Assembly (NCBI RefSeq): GCF_003330765.1
Contig: NZ_CP024903.1
Span: 2,480,001 to 2,544,000, forward strand
DNA from: Burkholderia pyrrocinia
GTDB taxonomy: Bacteria > Pseudomonadota > Gammaproteobacteria > Burkholderiales > Burkholderiaceae
Direction of reading: 5' to 3'
Length of the DNA: 64,000 bases
The notes under the pieces are model-generated. The model saw only the letters and a list, made by a program, of their open reading frames with translations, searched no databases and was not told where the DNA came from. A program made the translations under genes and the position numbers. Positions 6,839 through 18,455 of this stretch are shown here, piece by piece (the stretch's first letter is position 1; the number at the start of each line of letters is the position of its first letter).

Positions 6839-7145
6839 GTCAGTGTCCTGTATGGAGTCGTGGCCGCTTCGGCGTTGCCGGCAGCCGGGAGATTTCGCGC
6901 CATGTTTACGGGGCCGGCGCGTTTCGTCAAAGACGCGGCGCTCGGTTCGAGGCCGCCCGCGTAACGCGATGTCGAACGCTACGTAACATCGCGCCGCGCG
7001 TTACGGCTGCTCACGGGAACATCGCAACCGCCGCGCCGCCGCACCGTGCGTGCCCGTCGCGCGAAACCGCCGGTACTCCGTTTAAATCGCGTTGATATTC
7101 CCGATTCCCGCAACAAAACGCGACACCGTTTCGCGCAATCTGACA
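6839..7145. other. Intergenic region upstream of the collagen-like lipoprotein gene
   Basis: About 300 bases without a gene between two divergent genes. The left half is GC-rich and unremarkable. The right part (7080-7125) is unusually AT-rich for this genome and contains TTGATA and AAACAAAA-like tracts. That is the expected place for activator or IHF binding upstream of a sigma-54 promoter, but I see no exact IHF consensus. Confidence 0.4.
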
Positions 7146-7161
7146 TGGCGCGGAATTTGCA
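7146..7161 (+). promoter_or_regulatory. Sigma-54 (-24/-12) promoter
   Basis: TGGCGCGGAATTTGCA matches the RpoN consensus TGGCACG-N4-TTGCW at nearly all conserved positions. The GG and GC dinucleotides are separated by exactly 10 bases. Transcription would begin near 7173, leaving a leader of about 26 bases before the ATG at 7199. It implies that the lipoprotein gene needs an enhancer-binding activator. Confidence 0.65.
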
Positions 7162-7198
7162 GTGGAGGCTGGGACACACTTCCAATGTCGAGGCCAAC

Positions 7199-9217
7199 AT
7201 GCAAAATTACTTCAAGAAGACGACGGTAACGCTCGCTGTCTCGTCGCTGCTCGCGCTGTATGGCTGCGGCTCGGTCGACGGACCGACGACCCCGCCGTCG
7301 ATCAAGCCGAGCACGTCCGGGACGGGCGCCACTTCGGGGACGTCGGGTACGTCCGGCGGCAGCTCCGGCACGTCGGGTAGCTCGGGTAGCTCGGGTAGCT
7401 CGGGTAGCTCGGGTAGCTCGGGTAGCTCGGGTAGCTCCGGCAGTTCCGGCAGTTCGGGTACTTCCAGCTCCGGCACCTCCAGCTCCGGCACCTCCAGCTC
7501 CGGTACCTCCAGTTCCGGCACTTCCAGCTCCAGCTCTGGCACTTCCAGCTCCAGCTCCGGTACTTCCAGCTCCAGCTCCGGTACTTCCGGCTCCAGCTCG
7601 GGCACCTCCAGCTCCAGCTCGGGTACTTCCGGCTCCAGCTCGGGCACCTCCAGCTCCAGCTCGGGTACCTCCAGCTCCAGCTCGGGTACCTCCAGCTCCA
7701 GCTCCGGCACCTCCAGCTCCAGCTCGGGTACCTCCAGCTCCAGCTCGGGTACCTCCAGCTCCAGCTCCGGCACCTCCAGCTCCAGTTCGGGTACCTCCAG
7801 CTCCAGCTCCGGCACCTCCAGTTCCAGTTCGGGTACCTCCAGCTCCGGCACCTCCAGCTCCGGCACTACCCCGCTCGGCAATGTCCTCCAGAAATCCGGC
7901 AACCTCGTGACGGCACTCGGCACGACGGTCGCGAACGGCGGCGCGCAGATCGGCGGCGTGGTGATCCCCGGCACGAACCCGACGACGGCCACCAGCGTCG
8001 GCAACGCGGTCACGAGCCTCGGCAACGGCGTGCAGTCGCTCGGCAACGGCGTCGCGGCCGGCCTCGGCTCGATCGGCGTGTCGGCGAACCCGCTCGGACC
8101 GACGCTGACGTCGACCACCGGCCTGCTGACCGGCGCCGGCGGCGCGGTCAACAATCTCGGCAACGCGGTGACGAGCCTCGGCTCGGGCCCGCTGTCGCCG
8201 CTGTCACCGGTGACGACGCTCGTCGGCGGCCTCGTCAACACCGTCGGCGGCGCCGTCAACTCGACCGCGTCGGGCCTCAATACGGCGCTGAACAGCTCGC
8301 CGGTCCAGCAACTCGGAACCCAGGTCGGCAGCGTGATCAACCCGATCACGAACACGCTGACCGGCGGCGTCACGACGCCGGGCGCCACGCAGACGCTCGG
8401 CGGCGCCACCATGCTCGGCGCCCCGCTCAGCGGACTGCTGAGCACGCTCGGCGGCGGCCTCGGCCTCGCCGGTTCGCAGGTAGGCGGCGCGACCGGCAAC
8501 CCGGTCGGCAACGGTCTCGGCGGCAGCGTGAACCAGCTCGGCAACACGGTGACGTCGACCGGTGGCCTCCTCTCCAGCGGCAATACGGGCAGTTCCAGCA
8601 GCGGCACCAACCCGCTCGCACCGATCACCGGCCTGCTCGGTTCGCTGACGGGTGCGCTCGGCGGCGTCGGCTCGAGCGGCACCAGCGGAACCAGCGGTTC
8701 GGGCGGCACCAGCGGCACGAGCAGCGGCGGCCCGCTTGCCCCGGTCACGGGCCTGCTCGGCTCGGTGACGGGCGCGCTCGGCGGCCTCGGTTCGAGCGGC
8801 ACGAGCGGCACCGGCGGGACGAGCGGCACCAGCGGCACCGGTGGCTCGGGCGTCGGCGGCCTGCTGGCGCCGGTCACCAACCTCGTCAACTCGCTGACGC
8901 CGCTCGGCGCAAGCCTCACCGGCACGGTCACGACGCCGGGAGGCAACGTGACGGGCAGCCTTGGCGGCCTGCTGTCGAGCGGCCCGGTCGGCACGCTGAC
9001 GGGTGCGCTGACGACGCCGGCCGGCGCCGCGGGCGCCACCGGAACGGCCAGCCCGAGCGGTGCAGCCGGCACGGCGACGACGCCCGCCGGCAGCGGCACC
9101 GTGGCGGCCGGCCTGACCGGCAGCTCGAACGGCGCCGCCGCGGGCGGTGCGACCAACCTGCTGTCGCCGGTAACCAACCTGCTCGGCGGTCTGCTGGGCG
9201 GCGGCACCAAGAAGTAA
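7199..9217 (+). CDS. Collagen-like/Ser-Gly-Thr repeat lipoprotein
   Basis: A 672-residue exported protein. Residues 1-22 form a signal peptide ending in LYGC, a slightly atypical lipobox with the acylated Cys at ~23. Residues ~42-222 are pure low-complexity sequence: GSS triplets, then TSSSG pentads and about 15 TSSSSSG heptads. The rest (~225-672) is Gly/Leu/Asn/Val-rich with recurrent LGNxVTxLG and PLAPVTGLLG motifs, resembling Burkholderia proteins annotated as collagen-like triple-helix repeat proteins. It is probably a surface or periplasmic structural/adhesive protein. A GAGG ribosome site precedes the ATG. A sigma-54 promoter lies just upstream. Confidence 0.8.
   Translation: MQNYFKKTTVTLAVSSLLALYGCGSVDGPTTPPSIKPSTSGTGATSGTSGTSGGSSGTSGSSGSSGSSGSSGSSGSSGSSGSSGSSGTSSSGTSSSGTSSSGTSSSGTSSSSSGTSSSSSGTSSSSSGTSGSSSGTSSSSSGTSGSSSGTSSSSSGTSSSSSGTSSSSSGTSSSSSGTSSSSSGTSSSSSGTSSSSSGTSSSSSGTSSSSSGTSSSGTSSSGTTPLGNVLQKSGNLVTALGTTVANGGAQIGGVVIPGTNPTTATSVGNAVTSLGNGVQSLGNGVAAGLGSIGVSANPLGPTLTSTTGLLTGAGGAVNNLGNAVTSLGSGPLSPLSPVTTLVGGLVNTVGGAVNSTASGLNTALNSSPVQQLGTQVGSVINPITNTLTGGVTTPGATQTLGGATMLGAPLSGLLSTLGGGLGLAGSQVGGATGNPVGNGLGGSVNQLGNTVTSTGGLLSSGNTGSSSSGTNPLAPITGLLGSLTGALGGVGSSGTSGTSGSGGTSGTSSGGPLAPVTGLLGSVTGALGGLGSSGTSGTGGTSGTSGTGGSGVGGLLAPVTNLVNSLTPLGASLTGTVTTPGGNVTGSLGGLLSSGPVGTLTGALTTPAGAAGATGTASPSGAAGTATTPAGSGTVAAGLTGSSNGAAAGGATNLLSPVTNLLGGLLGGGTKK
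7370..7870 (+). repeat. Nested 9/15/21-bp in-frame tandem repeats
   Basis: The coding sequence for the Ser/Gly/Thr tract is a tandem array. It starts with roughly nine copies of a 9-bp unit (AGCTCGGGT) and 15-bp units. Then come about fifteen 21-bp units (consensus ACCTCCAGCTCCAGCTCGGGT) with scattered synonymous changes. All units are multiples of three, so slippage would change protein length without breaking the frame. Confidence 0.9.
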
Positions 9218-12378: not shown

Positions 12379-13005
12379 TTACCGCGCCTTGGCGCGCGTC
12401 ACCTTTTTCGCCGGTTTGGCCGCCTTCGCGCGCGGCGCTTCCTTCTCGGGCTGCGCGCCGCCGCCGGCGAGATCCTCGAGCCACGCCAGCGCATCGACGT
12501 ACGACAGGAACTGCTGCAGATATTCCGGCGACAACTCGCGCATGGTCGACAACGACCGGTGCACGAGGCTGTTCGAATTGAGCGGCCCCGCGTTGCGCGG
12601 CACCTGGTCGAGCGACTGGCGGTACTGTTGTTCCGTGCGGACTTTCGACCACATCGTGCGGAAGTAGTCGACCAGTTCGGGATCGAGCCCGCGCCGGTCG
12701 GCCTGCGCATCGCGCGCGAGCCGATCAACGAGCCCCGCAAGCGCACCGCGCCCGGGCGCACCTGCCGCGGCTTCAGCCGTCTCACGCGTGGCCGCCGCTT
12801 CATCGGCCCCCGCGACAACCTCCGCAAAGCTTTCCATCAGCGTCGCCAGCCGCGCGTCGAGCAACGCGCGTGCGTCGCCATCGAGCGCGGCCGCGCGCCG
12901 TTCGAGCGCGTCGATCCGGTGAAAACGCACGGGGTCGAGCCGATCGGCGCCCTGCTCGCGCCATGCGTCGAGCGTCGCGCGAGCGTGCGTCGCGTCGTCC
13001 GTCAC
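12379..13005 (-). CDS. DUF2894 family protein (motor-like operon, gene 4)
   Basis: A 208-residue soluble, charged, largely helical protein. The opening (THARATLDAWREQGADRLDP, then VRFHRIDALERR) and the later EYLQQFLSYVDALAWLEDL fit the DUF2894 family. The C-terminus is a basic Ala/Lys-rich tail. Its start overlaps the stop of the OmpA-like gene by four bases, so it is translationally coupled to the motor pair. Function is unknown. Position suggests a cytoplasmic accessory of the MotA/MotB-like complex. Confidence 0.75.
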   Translation of the reverse strand: MTDDATHARATLDAWREQGADRLDPVRFHRIDALERRAAALDGDARALLDARLATLMESFAEVVAGADEAAATRETAEAAAGAPGRGALAGLVDRLARDAQADRRGLDPELVDYFRTMWSKVRTEQQYRQSLDQVPRNAGPLNSNSLVHRSLSTMRELSPEYLQQFLSYVDALAWLEDLAGGGAQPEKEAPRAKAAKPAKKVTRAKAR

Positions 13006-13646
13006 CGCGCCTTCCCTCCGTTCGACGCGGTCTTGCGCGGCACCGGCGCGATCTCCACGCGACGGTTCTTCGCGCGGCCTTCATCGTCCGCATTCGAGCT
13101 GACCGGCTGTTCGGAGCCGAACGCGGCCGCGAACACCGACCCCGCCGGCACGCCGGCGTCGATCAGCGCACGCGTGACCGTCAACGCGCGCTTGGCCGAC
13201 AGTTCCCAGTTGTCCGCGAACTGGCGGTTGCCGGCATGCACCTGCTGGTCGTCGGCGAAGCCGCTGATCATCAGGATCTCGTCGCGCGTCTTCAGGTAGG
13301 CGGCCAGCGGGGTGGCCAGCGTCTTCAGCAGGTCGCGGCCCGCGGGCTGCAACTGGTCGGAGTTCAGCGCGAACAGCACGTTGCCGCTGATGCCGATGCG
13401 CCCGTTCACGAGCGTCACGCGGCCGGCCGCGAGCGGCCCGGCGAGCGCCTGTTCGAGCGACTTGCGCTGCTGCGCTTCCTGCTGGCGCGCGCGCACGGCT
13501 TCCTCGAGCTTCGACGTGAGTTGAAGCTGCATGCCGATCACGCCGACGAGGATCAGCACGAACGCGCCGAGCAGCACCGACATCAGGTCGGCGAACGCGG
13601 GCCACACCGGCGCCGATTGCGTGCCGCCGTCGATTTCGTCGTGCAT
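13002..13646 (-). CDS. MotB/OmpA-family protein (stator-like plug subunit)
   Basis: A 214-residue protein with one N-terminal membrane helix (~residues 20-42). It is preceded by the MotB-like WPAFADLMSVLLGAFVLI, in which Asp ~20 sits where MotB, ExbD and TolR carry the ion-binding Asp. A periplasmic coiled linker follows. The C-terminal OmpA peptidoglycan-binding domain (~85-200) ends with ELSAKRALTVTRALIDAGVP and GRAKNRRVEI. It should pair with the DUF802 channel protein encoded four bases upstream and anchor it to the cell wall. Confidence 0.85.
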   Translation of the reverse strand: MHDEIDGGTQSAPVWPAFADLMSVLLGAFVLILVGVIGMQLQLTSKLEEAVRARQQEAQQRKSLEQALAGPLAAGRVTLVNGRIGISGNVLFALNSDQLQPAGRDLLKTLATPLAAYLKTRDEILMISGFADDQQVHAGNRQFADNWELSAKRALTVTRALIDAGVPAGSVFAAAFGSEQPVSSNADDEGRAKNRRVEIAPVPRKTASNGGKAR

Positions 13647-13649
13647 GCG

Positions 13650-16600
13650 TTACGCTCCGACGGGCGCCCGCCGGACGGCGAGCTGCTGCAGATCCTCGAC
13701 GATCTGCTTCTGCGACATCATGCTCAGGTCGATCACCTCGCGCGCCTGCGCGACGTAGTACTCGAGCTGCTCGTCGCTGCGCGCGAGCGATTTCTCGAGC
13801 GCGGCCTCGATGCGCTGCAGATGGGTCAGCAGCTTGTCGTTCGATTCGCCGAACACCTGCACGGCCGTCCCGAACGCATCGCCGAGGCTCGCGACCTCGA
13901 CGGCGCCCGCCGTGACCTGTGCGGCCACCGAGTCGAGCTTGCGCGTTTCGGCATCGACGGTGTCGTTGAAGCGCGCGCCGACGCGGTCGAGCAGATCGGC
14001 CGACGTGCTGACGAGCGCGTCGATCGCGGTGCGCTGTTCGGTCGACGCGTGATTGACCGCGCCGAGCAGCGTTTCAAGCGTGGCGAGCAGGCGGCTGCGT
14101 TCCTCGAGCGTCGCGGTATCGCGCACCATGCTGTCGGACAGGCGCTGGCGCAGCTCGGCGACGACGTCGGCCGCGGCCTTCGGCGCCTCCGACGCGGCCT
14201 GCACGAGCCGCGCGATCTCGTTGATCGTGTCGCTCGCGTGAACCTGCGCCTGTGCGGTGATGTCGTTCGCGGTGCGGGCCAGCGTGTCGCAGATGTCCTG
14301 CTGGCGCGTCGCGGCGTGCGCGCTCGTCTGCGCCCATTCGTCGCGCAGCGCGGCCGCCATCGCGGCGAGCGAATCGTTCCATGCGGACAGGCGTTCTTCG
14401 TCGCGTGCGGCGAGTTGTGCTTGCAGGCCCGTGTGCGAATCTCGAATTGTCGACAGCAGATCGTTCGAGCGTTGTTCGAAGGTCGAAGCCTGCGTGGTGA
14501 GATCGCGCGTCGTTTGTGCGAGTGCGTCGCAGATTTCCTGCTGACGGCCCGCGCTATGCACGCCCGCGCGTTGCCATTCGTCGCCGAGCTTCACGGTCAT
14601 CGCAGTCAGTGAATCGTTCCAGGTCGACAGACGTTCTTCGTCGCGTGCGGCCAGTTGCGTTTGCAAGCCCGTATGCGAATCGCGGATCGTCGACAGCAGA
14701 TCGTTCGAGCGTTGTTCGAAGGTCGAAGCCTGCGTGGCGAGGTCGCGCGTCGTTTGTGCAAGCGCGTCGCAGATTTCCTGCTGACGGCCCGCGCTGTGCA
14801 CGCCTGCGCGTTGCCATTCGTCGCCGAGCTTCACGGCCATCGCGGCCAACGAATCGTTCCAAGTCGACAGGCGTTCTTCGTCGCGGGCGGCAAGCTGCGT
14901 CTGCAAGCCCGTATGCGAATCGCGGATCGTCGACAGCAAATCGTTCGAGCGCTGTTCGAAAGTCGAAGCCTGCGTGATGAGGTCGCGCGTCGTTTGTGCA
15001 AGCGCGTCGCAGATTTCCTGCTGACGGCCCGCGCTGTGTACGCCTGCGCGTTGCCATTCGTCGCCGAGCTTCACGGCCATGGCGGCCAACGAATCGTTCC
15101 AGGCCGACAGGCGTGCTTCGTCGCGGGCGGCAAGCTGCGTCTGCAAGCCCGTATGCGAATCGCGGATCGTCGACAGCAGATCGTTCGAACGTTGTTCGAA
15201 AGTCGAAGCCTGTGCCGTGAGATCGCGCGTCGTTTGTGCAAGCGCATCGCAGATTTCCTGCTGACGGCCCGCGCTGTGTACGCCTGCACGCTGCCACTCG
15301 TCGCCGAGCTTCGCGGCCATCGCGGCCAGCGAGTCGTTCCAGGCCGTGATGCGCTGTTCGTCGCGCGCGGCCAGTTCGGTCTGCAGCCCCGCGTGCGACT
15401 CGCGCATCGCGGCGAGCGTCGCGCCCGAATGCCGTTCGAACGTCGCGGCGGCTTCGCCCAGCGCGCGCGCATGCTGGCCGGCCAGCGTCTCGCCGACCTG
15501 CTCCTGGCGCGACAGCGCATCGCGCCAGGCGTCCGACAGGCGGCCTTCGGTCGATTCGAGGCGCGTCGCGACGCCGTCGAGCAGGTCCGTCGAACGCTGC
15601 GCGAACGTGTCGGTGAACTGGCCGAGCGTCGTCTGCAGTTGCTGCGCGACGGCGTCGCCCGCGCGGCGCTGTTCGTCGATCGCGCGGTTCCAGGCTGCCG
15701 TCACGTTGCCGGTGGTCTTCTCGAAGCCGTCCGTCAGCCCGTCGAGCTGACGCTGCACGGCGCCCGTCACGGTGTCGCGCAGCGCGGCCATCTCCTGCGT
15801 GAGCCCCGTCATCGTCGCCGCGACGACCGGCTGCAGCGCGGCACCGGCCACGCGCGCGCTCTCGACGGCGCTTTCCTTCAGCGCGTCGCCGACGTTCGAC
15901 GCAAGGCCCGCGTACGCGCGCTCGGTCCGGTCGAAAAACGCCTGCTGGCTTTCGAGCTGGCGATCGTGCAGCGCGACGCTGCGCGCCTCGAGCGTCGTCA
16001 TCATCGTCTGCAGCCGGTCGACCAGCGCCGGCATCACGTCGGCCTGGCGCTGCAGCAACCGGAACGATTCGTCGCGCTGGTGCGCGGACGAATGCACGCG
16101 CAACGTCGTCGCGATCTTCGCGTCGAGCTGCTGGGCCGCATCGATCCGCTCGCGGCGCACGAGCGCGGACAGCAGCCCGAGCATCGCGGACGTCGCGACA
16201 CCGGCAATCGACGTGCCGAACGCGAACCCGAGGCCCTTCACCGGCGCGATCAGCGATGCGCGGATCGCGTCGAGATCGGTCGCGCTTTCGAGCGCGGCGC
16301 CCGTGCCCTTCAGCGTCACGACCATCCCGAGCAGCGTGCCGAGCATGCCGAGCAGCACCAGCAGGCCGACGAGGTAAGGCGTGAGCGACGGGCCCGGCAG
16401 CGCGACGCGCGCGCCTTCGACACGCGCGCGCACGGCGCCACGCAGGCCCGGGTGCAGCGTGTCGAGCCACGTGTCGAGCTTCGCGGGCGGCTCGCTCAGG
16501 CCGGCGACCGCGCGCGACAGCGTGGCGGTCGCCTGCCGGTAGCGCAGCAGTTCCCATGCGCCGGCGACGTAGCACGCGCCGATCAGCAGCGTGACGGCCG

Positions 16601-16697
16601 ACGCCAGCGGGTTCGACGCGATATAGCCGACACCGATCCAGCACACTGCGAGCAGACCGGCGACGAAGACAACGAGATCAATGCGAATTCTGGACAT
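13650..16697 (-). CDS. DUF802 MotA/TolQ/ExbB-like membrane protein with giant helical tail
   Basis: A 1015-residue protein. Membrane helices lie at ~8-28, 31-52, 105-129 and 154-179. The last two carry the ion-channel family hallmarks LLGMLGTLLGMVVTLKG and KGLGFAFGTSIAGVATSAM. Residues ~185-1000 form a long, heptad-rich, mostly helical tail projecting into the cytoplasm. It contains four nearly identical 80-residue repeats (~430-770). The architecture (MotA-like base plus long tail, paired with a MotB-like protein) resembles ZorA/ZorB of Zorya, but no Zorya effector genes are present. Ion-driven force transmission is the inferred role; the cargo is unknown. Confidence 0.8.
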   Translation of the reverse strand: MSRIRIDLVVFVAGLLAVCWIGVGYIASNPLASAVTLLIGACYVAGAWELLRYRQATATLSRAVAGLSEPPAKLDTWLDTLHPGLRGAVRARVEGARVALPGPSLTPYLVGLLVLLGMLGTLLGMVVTLKGTGAALESATDLDAIRASLIAPVKGLGFAFGTSIAGVATSAMLGLLSALVRRERIDAAQQLDAKIATTLRVHSSAHQRDESFRLLQRQADVMPALVDRLQTMMTTLEARSVALHDRQLESQQAFFDRTERAYAGLASNVGDALKESAVESARVAGAALQPVVAATMTGLTQEMAALRDTVTGAVQRQLDGLTDGFEKTTGNVTAAWNRAIDEQRRAGDAVAQQLQTTLGQFTDTFAQRSTDLLDGVATRLESTEGRLSDAWRDALSRQEQVGETLAGQHARALGEAAATFERHSGATLAAMRESHAGLQTELAARDEQRITAWNDSLAAMAAKLGDEWQRAGVHSAGRQQEICDALAQTTRDLTAQASTFEQRSNDLLSTIRDSHTGLQTQLAARDEARLSAWNDSLAAMAVKLGDEWQRAGVHSAGRQQEICDALAQTTRDLITQASTFEQRSNDLLSTIRDSHTGLQTQLAARDEERLSTWNDSLAAMAVKLGDEWQRAGVHSAGRQQEICDALAQTTRDLATQASTFEQRSNDLLSTIRDSHTGLQTQLAARDEERLSTWNDSLTAMTVKLGDEWQRAGVHSAGRQQEICDALAQTTRDLTTQASTFEQRSNDLLSTIRDSHTGLQAQLAARDEERLSAWNDSLAAMAAALRDEWAQTSAHAATRQQDICDTLARTANDITAQAQVHASDTINEIARLVQAASEAPKAAADVVAELRQRLSDSMVRDTATLEERSRLLATLETLLGAVNHASTEQRTAIDALVSTSADLLDRVGARFNDTVDAETRKLDSVAAQVTAGAVEVASLGDAFGTAVQVFGESNDKLLTHLQRIEAALEKSLARSDEQLEYYVAQAREVIDLSMMSQKQIVEDLQQLAVRRAPVGA
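14281..15360 (-). repeat. 240-bp in-frame tandem repeats within the DUF802 gene
   Basis: Four near-identical copies of a 240-bp unit recur at exact 240-base spacing (for example the segment at 14521, 14761, 15001 and 15241). A fifth, more diverged copy lies on the 14281 side. Each encodes 80 residues (ICDALAQTTRDL... to ...GVHSAGRQQE). The high nucleotide identity points to recent duplication or gene conversion. Confidence 0.95.
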
Positions 16698-16707
16698 AGC
16701 GTGTTGA

Positions 16708-17457
16708 TTAGCAGGTGCGAAGAGCCGCGAGCAGCCCGTCTACCGTTTGAAACCGGACTTCGAGTTCGGCGAGCAGGATGCTTTGCATTTCGTCGCGAAA
16801 CGTGTCGAGCCATGTGCCTGGCACGATCGCTGCGACGGCCGCGCCGTCATCAGCCGGATCGGCTGCGGCGGCGGATTCGGCATCGGCCAGCGCCTGCCGT
16901 TCCGCGTCGCGCAGCCGCCCGAAGCGCGTGCCGAGCAGCGCGGGCACGGCCGACAGCAGGCTGCGCTCGCGCGCGCCGAGCACGCGCTCCATGATCGCGT
17001 CGAGCGTCGCGAGCCGCGCCATTGCCGACGAGCGCGCGGCGAGCGCGACCCGCAGGCGGCCGCGCAACTGGCCGATCGCCGTTTCCATCTCCTGCTGCAG
17101 GGACAGATAACGCTGACGAAAGTCCGCGAAATCGGCCGTGTCGGCGGCCGGCGGCGGCATGTCGCCGGGCCGGCGCCGCGTCCGCGGCCGGTTGGTGGCC
17201 GTGATCGCCTGCGCGAGGTCGTGGCGCACGCGCGCGCAGTCGCGCTCCGCGTCGTGGCCGCGCACGCCGGCCGCGACGCCGGGCGGGCTCGCGCTCAGCG
17301 CAGACGACAGCGTGATCGCGTCGGTCCAGCCGAGCCACTGGCTCAGTCGGTCCGACAGCGTCTGCCGGGATTCCGCGACGTCGGCATCGGCCAGGCGCGC
17401 GAGCAGCCGGACGAGCGTCGGGCCGCTCAATGCCGGGCGCGGGGAAGCTTGCACCAT
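16708..17457 (-). CDS. DUF3348 family protein (motor-like operon, gene 1)
   Basis: A 249-residue soluble helical protein. The N-terminus (GPTLVRLLARLADADVAES, then RQTLSDRLSQWLGWTDAITL) matches the DUF3348 family known next to DUF802/OmpA/DUF2894 genes in Burkholderia and Xanthomonas. I start at the ATG of MVQASPRPAL; a TTG 15 bases further upstream is in frame. It is the first gene of the minus-strand operon, ending 10 bases before the channel gene. Role unknown, perhaps a cytoplasmic partner of the tail. Confidence 0.75.
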   Translation of the reverse strand: MVQASPRPALSGPTLVRLLARLADADVAESRQTLSDRLSQWLGWTDAITLSSALSASPPGVAAGVRGHDAERDCARVRHDLAQAITATNRPRTRRRPGDMPPPAADTADFADFRQRYLSLQQEMETAIGQLRGRLRVALAARSSAMARLATLDAIMERVLGARERSLLSAVPALLGTRFGRLRDAERQALADAESAAAADPADDGAAVAAIVPGTWLDTFRDEMQSILLAELEVRFQTVDGLLAALRTC

Positions 17458-17816
17458 GCTGCAACCCGTCAAAAAGGCAGCAGTTTACACGTCGCGGGGA
17501 GGTCGGCCGCCAGAATCGGGGAAGCGGCGCCGTCCGGCGCACCGTGCGACCCACGCGAACGCCCGCCGCGCAAGGCTCGGCGGGCGGCGATGGATCGTCA
17601 GGAAAGATCGTCGGCGGCGACCCGGCAAGCTGCCGGGATCGGGTCGCCAGACGCATCGCCCGGTGTGCATGAGGAAGAGAGCGCGTTTCCGGACGACTTG
17701 CGGATTCCGGAAGCGTGGCGTGATGAGCGCTCGCGCGGCGGTGTGGGCGGTTCGCTCCGGCGGCCAGCCACGGGAATGGCGAGCCGCCCTGCGATGCCGA
17801 TCGGGAATGGAAGCGG
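17458..17816. other. Intergenic region upstream of the motor-like operon
   Basis: About 360 bases without a convincing gene. It should carry the operon promoter; TAAACT near 17485 on the minus strand is a -10-like hexamer but lacks a matching -35. Two strong hairpins lie within it: CGCCCGCCG/CGGCGGGCG at 17560-17586, and GGCGACCC/GGGTCGCC at 17616-17648 with an inner CCCGGCA/TGCCGGG stem. Both are downstream of the lysE-like gene and may end its transcript. Confidence 0.5.
17560..17586 (-). terminator. Hairpin between lysE-like gene and DUF3348 gene
   Basis: Perfect 9-base arms CGCCCGCCG and CGGCGGGCG with a nine-base loop. There is no T-run on either side. It is placed to end or stabilise the transcript of the LysE-family gene. 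Confidence 0.4.
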
Positions 17817-18455
17817 TCAGATCCCCGCTTTCGGCGCGTTCAGGATCAGCCGCAGCCCGAGCAGCGTGATCGCGCCAGCCGCGATGCGGTCGACCCACTT
17901 CTTCGCGCGCAGGTAAAGCTCGCGCGGCCGGCGCGTGGAAAAGCACAGCGCGACGATCGTGTACCAGCCGAACTCGACGCCGAACACCAGCGGCGGCAGC
18001 GCGAGGTAGCACCACAGCGGCGGATGCTGCGGGAGCAGCGCCGCGAAGATGCTGCCGTACCAGATCGCCGTCTTCGGGTTGCTGAGCTGGGTCGTGAGGC
18101 CCGTCCAGAACGACTTGCGGGCGCTGCCGGCGGCCATCGCCTGCGGATCGTCCATCGCGATCGGCCGGTCGGCGCCGCGCCAGATCTTCGACGCCATGTA
18201 GATCAGGTACGCGCCGCCCGCCACCTTGAGGCCCACATACAGCCATTCGACGGCCTGCAGCAGCGTGTAGAGCCCGGCCAGCGCGACGCCGCCGAACACG
18301 ATGCCGCCCATGCCCATGCCGAGCGCGGTGGCGAGCCCGTCGCGGCGCGACAGCCCGATCGAATTGCGGGCAACCAGCACGAAGCTCGGGCCCGGAATCA
18401 TCGCGCCGAGCCACAGCGCGGCCAGGATGGCGAGTACGGCAGCCGATGCAGTCAT
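17817..18455 (-). CDS. LysE-family amino acid exporter
   Basis: A 212-residue inner-membrane protein with about six helices. The family signature MIPGPSFVLVARNSIGLSRR (~residues 19-38) precedes GLATALGMGMGG, and a second-half hallmark LSNPKTAIWYGSIFAALLP is present. RhtB/LysE members export amino acids or related metabolites by proton antiport; the substrate is unknown. No LysR-type partner is adjacent, unlike the classic lysE-lysG arrangement. Confidence 0.85.
   Translation of the reverse strand: MTASAAVLAILAALWLGAMIPGPSFVLVARNSIGLSRRDGLATALGMGMGGIVFGGVALAGLYTLLQAVEWLYVGLKVAGGAYLIYMASKIWRGADRPIAMDDPQAMAAGSARKSFWTGLTTQLSNPKTAIWYGSIFAALLPQHPPLWCYLALPPLVFGVEFGWYTIVALCFSTRRPRELYLRAKKWVDRIAAGAITLLGLRLILNAPKAGI

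Follow-up and report, generated by a model that had tools for sequence, protein, structure and literature searches.

In the published model of Zorya types I and II, ZorB senses a disturbance of the peptidoglycan, ion flow turns ZorA, and the ZorA rod recruits a nuclease (PMC11890865). A 5:2 ZorA:ZorB assembly is reported for both types, which need the aspartate in the ion path, peptidoglycan binding, and the tail (PMC11890865). Type III was defined in 2021 by Payne et al. through genes for DUF3348 and DUF2894 proteins that flank the motor pair; 6,401 such loci were reported, and an operon of Stenotrophomonas nitritireducens lowers the plating of at least one tested phage in Escherichia coli (PMC8565338). 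Here, we analyzed a 64,000-nucleotide stretch of Burkholderia pyrrocinia (contig NZ_CP024903.1, positions 2,480,001 to 2,544,000; hereafter, the window), in which positions 12379–17457 carry a minus-strand operon encoding, in this order, DUF3348, ZorA, ZorB, and DUF2894.

All four proteins matched the type III models of PADLOC-DB 2.0.0 (ZorA3, ZorB3, ZorF3, and ZorG3). Judged by these matches, the locus belongs to Zorya type III, with ZorA, ZorB, DUF3348, and DUF2894 as its components. The naming requires care: DUF3348 is ZorF and DUF2894 is ZorG in the 2021 paper (PMC8565338), and PADLOC-DB 2.0.0 reverses the two (ZorG3 and ZorF3, respectively). A first-pass annotation of this DNA, made from the letters alone, had described the layout as like that of Zorya. 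The likeness stands, and the reservation that it is only a likeness falls, since the type III models match every component. Nor is the unit uncharacterized, as had been proposed, because type III was defined, and the anti-phage activity of one representative published, in 2021 (PMC8565338). The four-gene unit contains no ZorC, ZorD, or ZorE, and PADLOC matched none of ten neighboring proteins to a Zorya model. This absence, earlier read as a deviation from Zorya, is not a departure, because type III is defined without these proteins. A literature search for “DUF802”, the Pfam family of this ZorA, returned no paper, with most subscription papers outside its reach.

A profile built from 30 ZorA N-terminal regions (first 255 residues) was searched against the Protein Data Bank (PDB) and matched the Shewanella ZorA structure 8VVN over residues 110–195 (E = 1.6e-4; next best match, 0.43). 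The Pfam MotA_ExbB model was weak, with no match on the window ZorA and matches on 4/30 relatives (best E = 0.018), and the NCBIfam model ZorA_1 gave 17.7 bits on the window protein, below its cut-off of 190. The comparison with ZorA, MotA, and ExbB by hidden Markov models that the annotation had proposed was thus positive for ZorA through 8VVN, nearly silent for Pfam MotA_ExbB, and weak for ZorA_1. The ZorA residues T121, T128, P152, T162, S163, and S170 were invariant in 176/176 aligned rows, and residue 20 of the OmpA-like protein, ZorB, was Asp in 177 of 178 rows, the remaining row having a gap; both alignments count some genomes twice. The OmpA domain of ZorB found its best PDB match in 3khn (1.2e-17), close to MotB domains. 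On the strength of the 8VVN match, the ZorA channel core is homologous to the MotA/ExbB/TolQ superfamily. The 8VVN match supports the MotA/ExbB-type channel proposed in the first-pass annotation, and the Asp that it placed at about residue 20 of the OmpA-like partner is the conserved Asp20. It had named a missing MotA/ExbB fold and a missing conserved Asp as reasons to abandon the idea, and neither arose.

DUF3348 was present as a single copy in 64 of the 65 Burkholderia genomes and in 64/64 good assemblies. The sole genome without it is an 82%-complete assembly in which DUF2894 is still present. DUF2894 itself was found in 63/65 genomes, the two misses being assemblies of 480 and 830 contigs. 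In the same 65 genomes, the control hsdR was above cut-off in 17 and present at any strength in 29, and a type I-like ZorA (ZorA_1) was near full length in 3; the latter count takes only near-full-length proteins from the 34 genomes matched at E ≤ 0.001, none above the curated cut-off, and among the remaining weak matches are the very loci of type III ZorA, alongside further partial hits. Operon distances tracked those of rpoB in the 30 genomes for which rpoB was returned (r = 0.970; 0/5000 permutations as high). The operon is a core, vertically inherited part of the genome in this genus. In the draft assemblies G004, G001, and G013, the genes for DUF3348 and DUF2894 are on separate contigs, and the G004 contig (locus L122) stops inside zorA, as expected if a tandem array breaks assembly.

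At the family level, DUF3348 occurred in 171/249 genomes and 11/25 genera, and at the class level in 8/369 genomes. The order-level search matched 18/300 genomes, two of them falsely: G206 and G073 yielded none of the four proteins and were dropped, which leaves 16/300. The open reading frames matched in these two genomes resemble what we take to be HlyD-type membrane-fusion proteins. The DUF2894 model was also above cut-off in Corynebacterium glutamicum, a distant control genome. LysE was nearby in 45 and FMN reductase in 41 of the 49 cepacia-type loci, compared with 1 and 0, respectively, of the 12 other genus loci, indicating that the two parts of the genus carry the operon at different positions. 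Judged with PADLOC, the ten neighboring proteins include no defence-like gene; for one of them, an unrelated model scored marginally (E = 3.3e-4). Among 212 matching plasmid records, 28 cover at least 80% of ZorB, and the replicons among the 25 plasmid matches listed are 0.59 to 3.5 Mb. No ZorA match was found in phage records.

The ZorA tail contains a 240-bp tandem array (14356–15409) that the first-pass annotation had not mentioned. ZorA could be measured at 61 loci of the genus, one of them truncated where its contig stops; 49 of the 61 encode proteins of 775, 855, 935, or 1015 residues (1, 4, 9, and 35 loci, respectively). In the best 120 of 7087 homologues, every length equals 695 + 80n residues (695/775/855/935/1015/1095 residues in 1/4/25/64/25/1 proteins); among these, the B. 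ambifaria proteins span 775 to 1015 residues, and those of B. cenocepacia have 695, 855, 935, and 1015. Assembly collapse may affect ladder lengths taken from short contigs, but the 855-, 935-, and 1015-residue proteins of B. ambifaria (P0006, P0078, and P0051) are encoded on contigs 2.6 to 2.8 Mb long. Xanthomonas translucens proteins of 738 (P0312) and 778 (P0311) residues come from contigs of over 4.7 Mb. The tail is a length ladder with several rungs inside one species. In the loci retrieved, type III ZorA ranged from 556 to 1220 residues. Type I ZorA is mostly 662–675 residues long (P0121–P0240 among the proteins examined), with a minority 62-residue ladder (729, 791, 853, and 915 residues) and one 91-residue duplication in this set and in loci L075, L076, and L077. 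For the type I-like P0234, the precomputed Pfam list additionally gives a MORN repeat domain (PF02493). A literature search, which missed most subscription papers, found no relevant publication on Zorya tail length or hendecads.

Self-comparison of the DNA of 176 loci identified 12 repeat-unit lengths, each a multiple of 3 bases (15, 22, 33, 51, 62, 69, 73, 80, 87, 94, 98, and 131 codons). With 3.618 residues per turn, these lengths come close to whole numbers of helix turns (R = 0.937; 0/20000 random sets as good), also when the units of 15, 22, and 33 are left out (R = 0.924; 1/20000). The 15-codon unit comes from L235, a locus with an apparently interrupted ZorA frame. In this and another Paraburkholderia tropica locus (L255), the frame stops approximately 760 and 1090 bases before zorB, and the tail looks interrupted or misassembled. 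One anchor in the channel and one at the tip could both be placed in 391/416 sequences; the spacing between them took 34 values, and the 32 that differ by at least 8 from the common value of 500 gave R = 0.825 at 3.640 (0/5000), although these spacings are not independent, because multiples of one unit share a phase. When sums of two or three smaller changes were removed from the anchor spacings, the 11 left were matched by 289/5000 random sets, an outcome that speaks against the register rule; the evidence from unit lengths remains strong. Hydrophobic periodicity exceeded the 99% shuffle level in 12/13 tails, peaking at 3.57–3.68 in 11 of them; the exceptions were L182, which stayed under that level, and L175, with a peak at 3.83. 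A ladder that keeps register is present in type I ZorA, too, where spacing differences of 62, 91, 124, 186, and 248 residues correspond to about 17, 25, 34, 51, and 68 turns (41/120 listed homologues with both anchors). Tail length varies while helical register hardly does. This register keeping, expected of any long coiled coil, supports a continuous rod and not rotation as such. Together with the ladder, it fits a coiled-coil rod that joins the motor to an output.

Codon alignments of 48 cepacia-type genomes, divided into seven segments, revealed purifying selection throughout, with ratios of nonsynonymous to synonymous substitution rates (dN/dS) of 0.109–0.300. The value was lowest in the last 200 ZorA residues (0.109), followed by ZorB (0.169), the first tail unit (0.169), the channel (0.170), the tail before the array (0.238), DUF2894 (0.297), and DUF3348 (0.300). 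Across genera (14 sequences of 697–698 residues), identity was highest in the channel (0.85–0.87), lowest in the middle tail (0.42–0.49), and intermediate to high in residues 526–700 (0.56–0.83). DUF3348 is predicted by AlphaFold2 to be all-helical, with fair confidence. DUF2894 was poorly predicted, yet it has a strongly conserved block near residues 135–177, and its C-terminal end carries a net charge of at least +3 in 55/56 aligned relatives (mean +6.1).

We consider it probable that Zorya III is an ion-driven ZorA5/ZorB2 motor whose tail rod relays a signal to DUF3348 and DUF2894; the types I/II model would carry over by analogy as far as the rod. Five ZorA and two ZorB subunits, a composition taken over from types I and II, would form the motor in the inner membrane. 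ZorB would hold the peptidoglycan, and a phage-caused disturbance of the envelope could allow ions to pass at Asp20, upon which ZorA would rotate or change shape. The motion may then run down the ZorA tail, pictured as a continuous, hendecad-rich coiled-coil rod of approximately 120 nm (805 residues at 1.5 Å), to the conserved tip, which would pass the signal to DUF3348 and DUF2894 as replacements for ZorC/D/E. The basic end of DUF2894 is a candidate contact to nucleic acid or membrane. The tail length could drift by whole repeats, provided that the register is kept. The Burkholderia copy, too, would presumably act against phages.

Several observations weigh against this proposal. The four genes include no nuclease or helicase, and our search for structural relatives of DUF3348 and DUF2894 found nothing informative. 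The phage test of type III used the Stenotrophomonas operon, not that of B. pyrrocinia (PMC8565338). Core, vertical presence is unusual for a defence system. In B. cenocepacia K56-2, knock-down of predicted defence systems, including Zorya III, caused no fitness change with phage Bcep176; in this CRISPR interference (CRISPRi) screen, which used that single phage, transcripts shifted in the first one or two genes, and the authors offer several explanations for the negative outcome (PMC12584637).

The alternative that the four proteins form a new motor family merely resembling ZorA/ZorB could draw on the low ZorA_1 score and the lack of a Pfam MotA_ExbB match on the window protein, but all four proteins score at full strength against PADLOC models specific to type III, and the sole confident PDB match of the profile is itself a ZorA, which led us to reject this highly improbable reading. 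The chances are about even that the ladder is neutral: slippage or recombination would add and remove units, selection would purge only out-of-register changes, and rod length as such would have no function. Consistent with neutrality, tail length did not cluster on the operon tree (14 changes against a shuffled mean of 13.1; 49 rows), units appear homogenized within a gene (identity of 0.910, compared with 0.832 for units of equal index in different species), and lengths vary within B. ambifaria, B. cenocepacia, and X. translucens. Conversely, 84/391 anchored sequences, spread over several genera and two orders, share an anchor spacing of exactly 500 residues, so that some lineages keep the length fixed, and type I lengths are concentrated at 662–675.

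A housekeeping role is a less likely option, in which the Burkholderia operon would mainly be an envelope machine for cell-wall sensing or force transmission; the phage resistance seen in E. coli would then be a secondary function or a by-product of over-expression. Single-copy presence across the genus (64/65 genomes; 64/64 good ones), distances that follow rpoB, strong purifying selection, conserved non-defence neighbors in cepacia-type loci with 0/10 convincing in PADLOC, and the CRISPRi phage screen without a fitness effect (PMC12584637) would all suit it. However, a core immune system would give the same picture, protection against at least one tested phage has been published for a type III operon (PMC8565338), and the patchy occurrence beyond the family (order and class) is more what one would expect of an optional system than of one needed universally. 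Returning to the motor-and-rod proposal, we tentatively suggest a broader version: Zorya tails might be phase-locked drive shafts of tunable length, in which selection keeps the register between motor and tip and permits, or even favors, whole-repeat changes of rod length within species, and the Burkholderia system might be a core machine whose primary job is perhaps general envelope surveillance, with phages as one trigger. If true, strains of one species would carry rods that differ by approximately 12 nm per unit. This natural series of tails of unequal length and equal register within a single species makes length, register, and rotation separately testable, and it bears on how the Zorya signal travels from the envelope to cytoplasmic effectors. 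The genus-wide core status raises a non-defence role and implies that scoring Zorya III as acquired defence in Burkholderia may mislead. DUF3348 and DUF2894, without an adjoining nuclease or helicase, would constitute the output.

The features of the operon are listed in Table 1. Going along the operon, the genes are separated by 10 bases and 3 bases, and the OmpA-like gene and DUF2894 then overlap by 4 bases. Strand and gene order were the same in 173/173 loci in which all four proteins were found. The open reading frame list starts DUF3348 at a TTG (17472); we used the ATG at residue 6, where the Pfam match begins, which gives 17457. No sigma-70-type promoter or terminator pattern was found within 17430–17830. 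The four genes predicted by the first-pass annotation were recovered at their positions on the minus strand, with the expected Pfam families (DUF3348, DUF802, OmpA, and DUF2894) and the overlapping or very close placement of DUF2894 and DUF3348 in one unit. Both channel motifs that it quoted occur in the DUF802 protein, and its helical tail of about 800 residues agrees with the 805 residues beyond residue 210. Near the operon, 7046–9217 on the plus strand encodes a protein with serine/glycine repeats and, in its middle, a bacterial-collagen domain (PF15984, 1.7e-52).

Table 1. Features of the Zorya type III operon, in window coordinates.
Feature	Position	Strand	Basis
DUF3348 protein, 249 residues, predicted all-helical	16708..17457	-	Pfam PF11828 1.2e-86; PADLOC ZorG3 4.9e-98
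DUF3348 model			AlphaFold2 pLDDT 84.9, pTM 0.80
ZorA3 (DUF802), 1015 residues, membrane channel module and long cytoplasmic helical tail	13650..16697	-	PADLOC ZorA3 1573.7 bits; Pfam DUF802 5.2e-30; profile match to PDB 8VVN ZorA
ZorA channel core, approximately residues 106-206	16080..16382	-	invariant T121, T128, P152, T162, S163, S170; alignment to 8VVN
80-residue (240-bp) tandem array in ZorA tail, four whole units, start at about residue 449	14356..15409	-	TRF period 240, 4.4 copies, 90% matches
ZorA tail tip, last 170 residues, conserved, proposed output end	13653..14162	-	dN/dS and cross-genus identity
ZorB3, 214 residues, one membrane helix and OmpA-type peptidoglycan-binding domain	13002..13646	-	PADLOC ZorB3 7.7e-115; Pfam OmpA 1.4e-18
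Asp20 codon of ZorB, ion-binding position in MotB/ZorB	13587..13589	-	conserved Asp in aligned rows
DUF2894 protein, 208 residues	12379..13005	-	Pfam PF11445 3.5e-57; PADLOC ZorF3 1.7e-82
Basic C-terminal end of DUF2894, last 20 residues	12382..12441	-	charge in aligned relatives

Among known systems, the MotAB/PomAB stators, ExbBD, and TolQR have the channel fold and the Asp mechanism in common with this locus by homology. To our knowledge, they are without a long cytoplasmic coiled-coil tail, and their partners differ from those of Zorya III. Zorya types I and II likewise combine a MotA-like ZorA bearing a rod-like tail with a MotB-like ZorB that has an essential Asp and a peptidoglycan-binding domain, and they possess ZorC and ZorD, or ZorE, in place of the two DUF proteins of type III (PMC11890865). 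The accessible portion of the type III description gives no account of the core status in the genus, the tail repeat ladder, or the register rule (PMC8565338). The system described there has the same four components, and its composition is identical to that of the present locus (PMC8565338).

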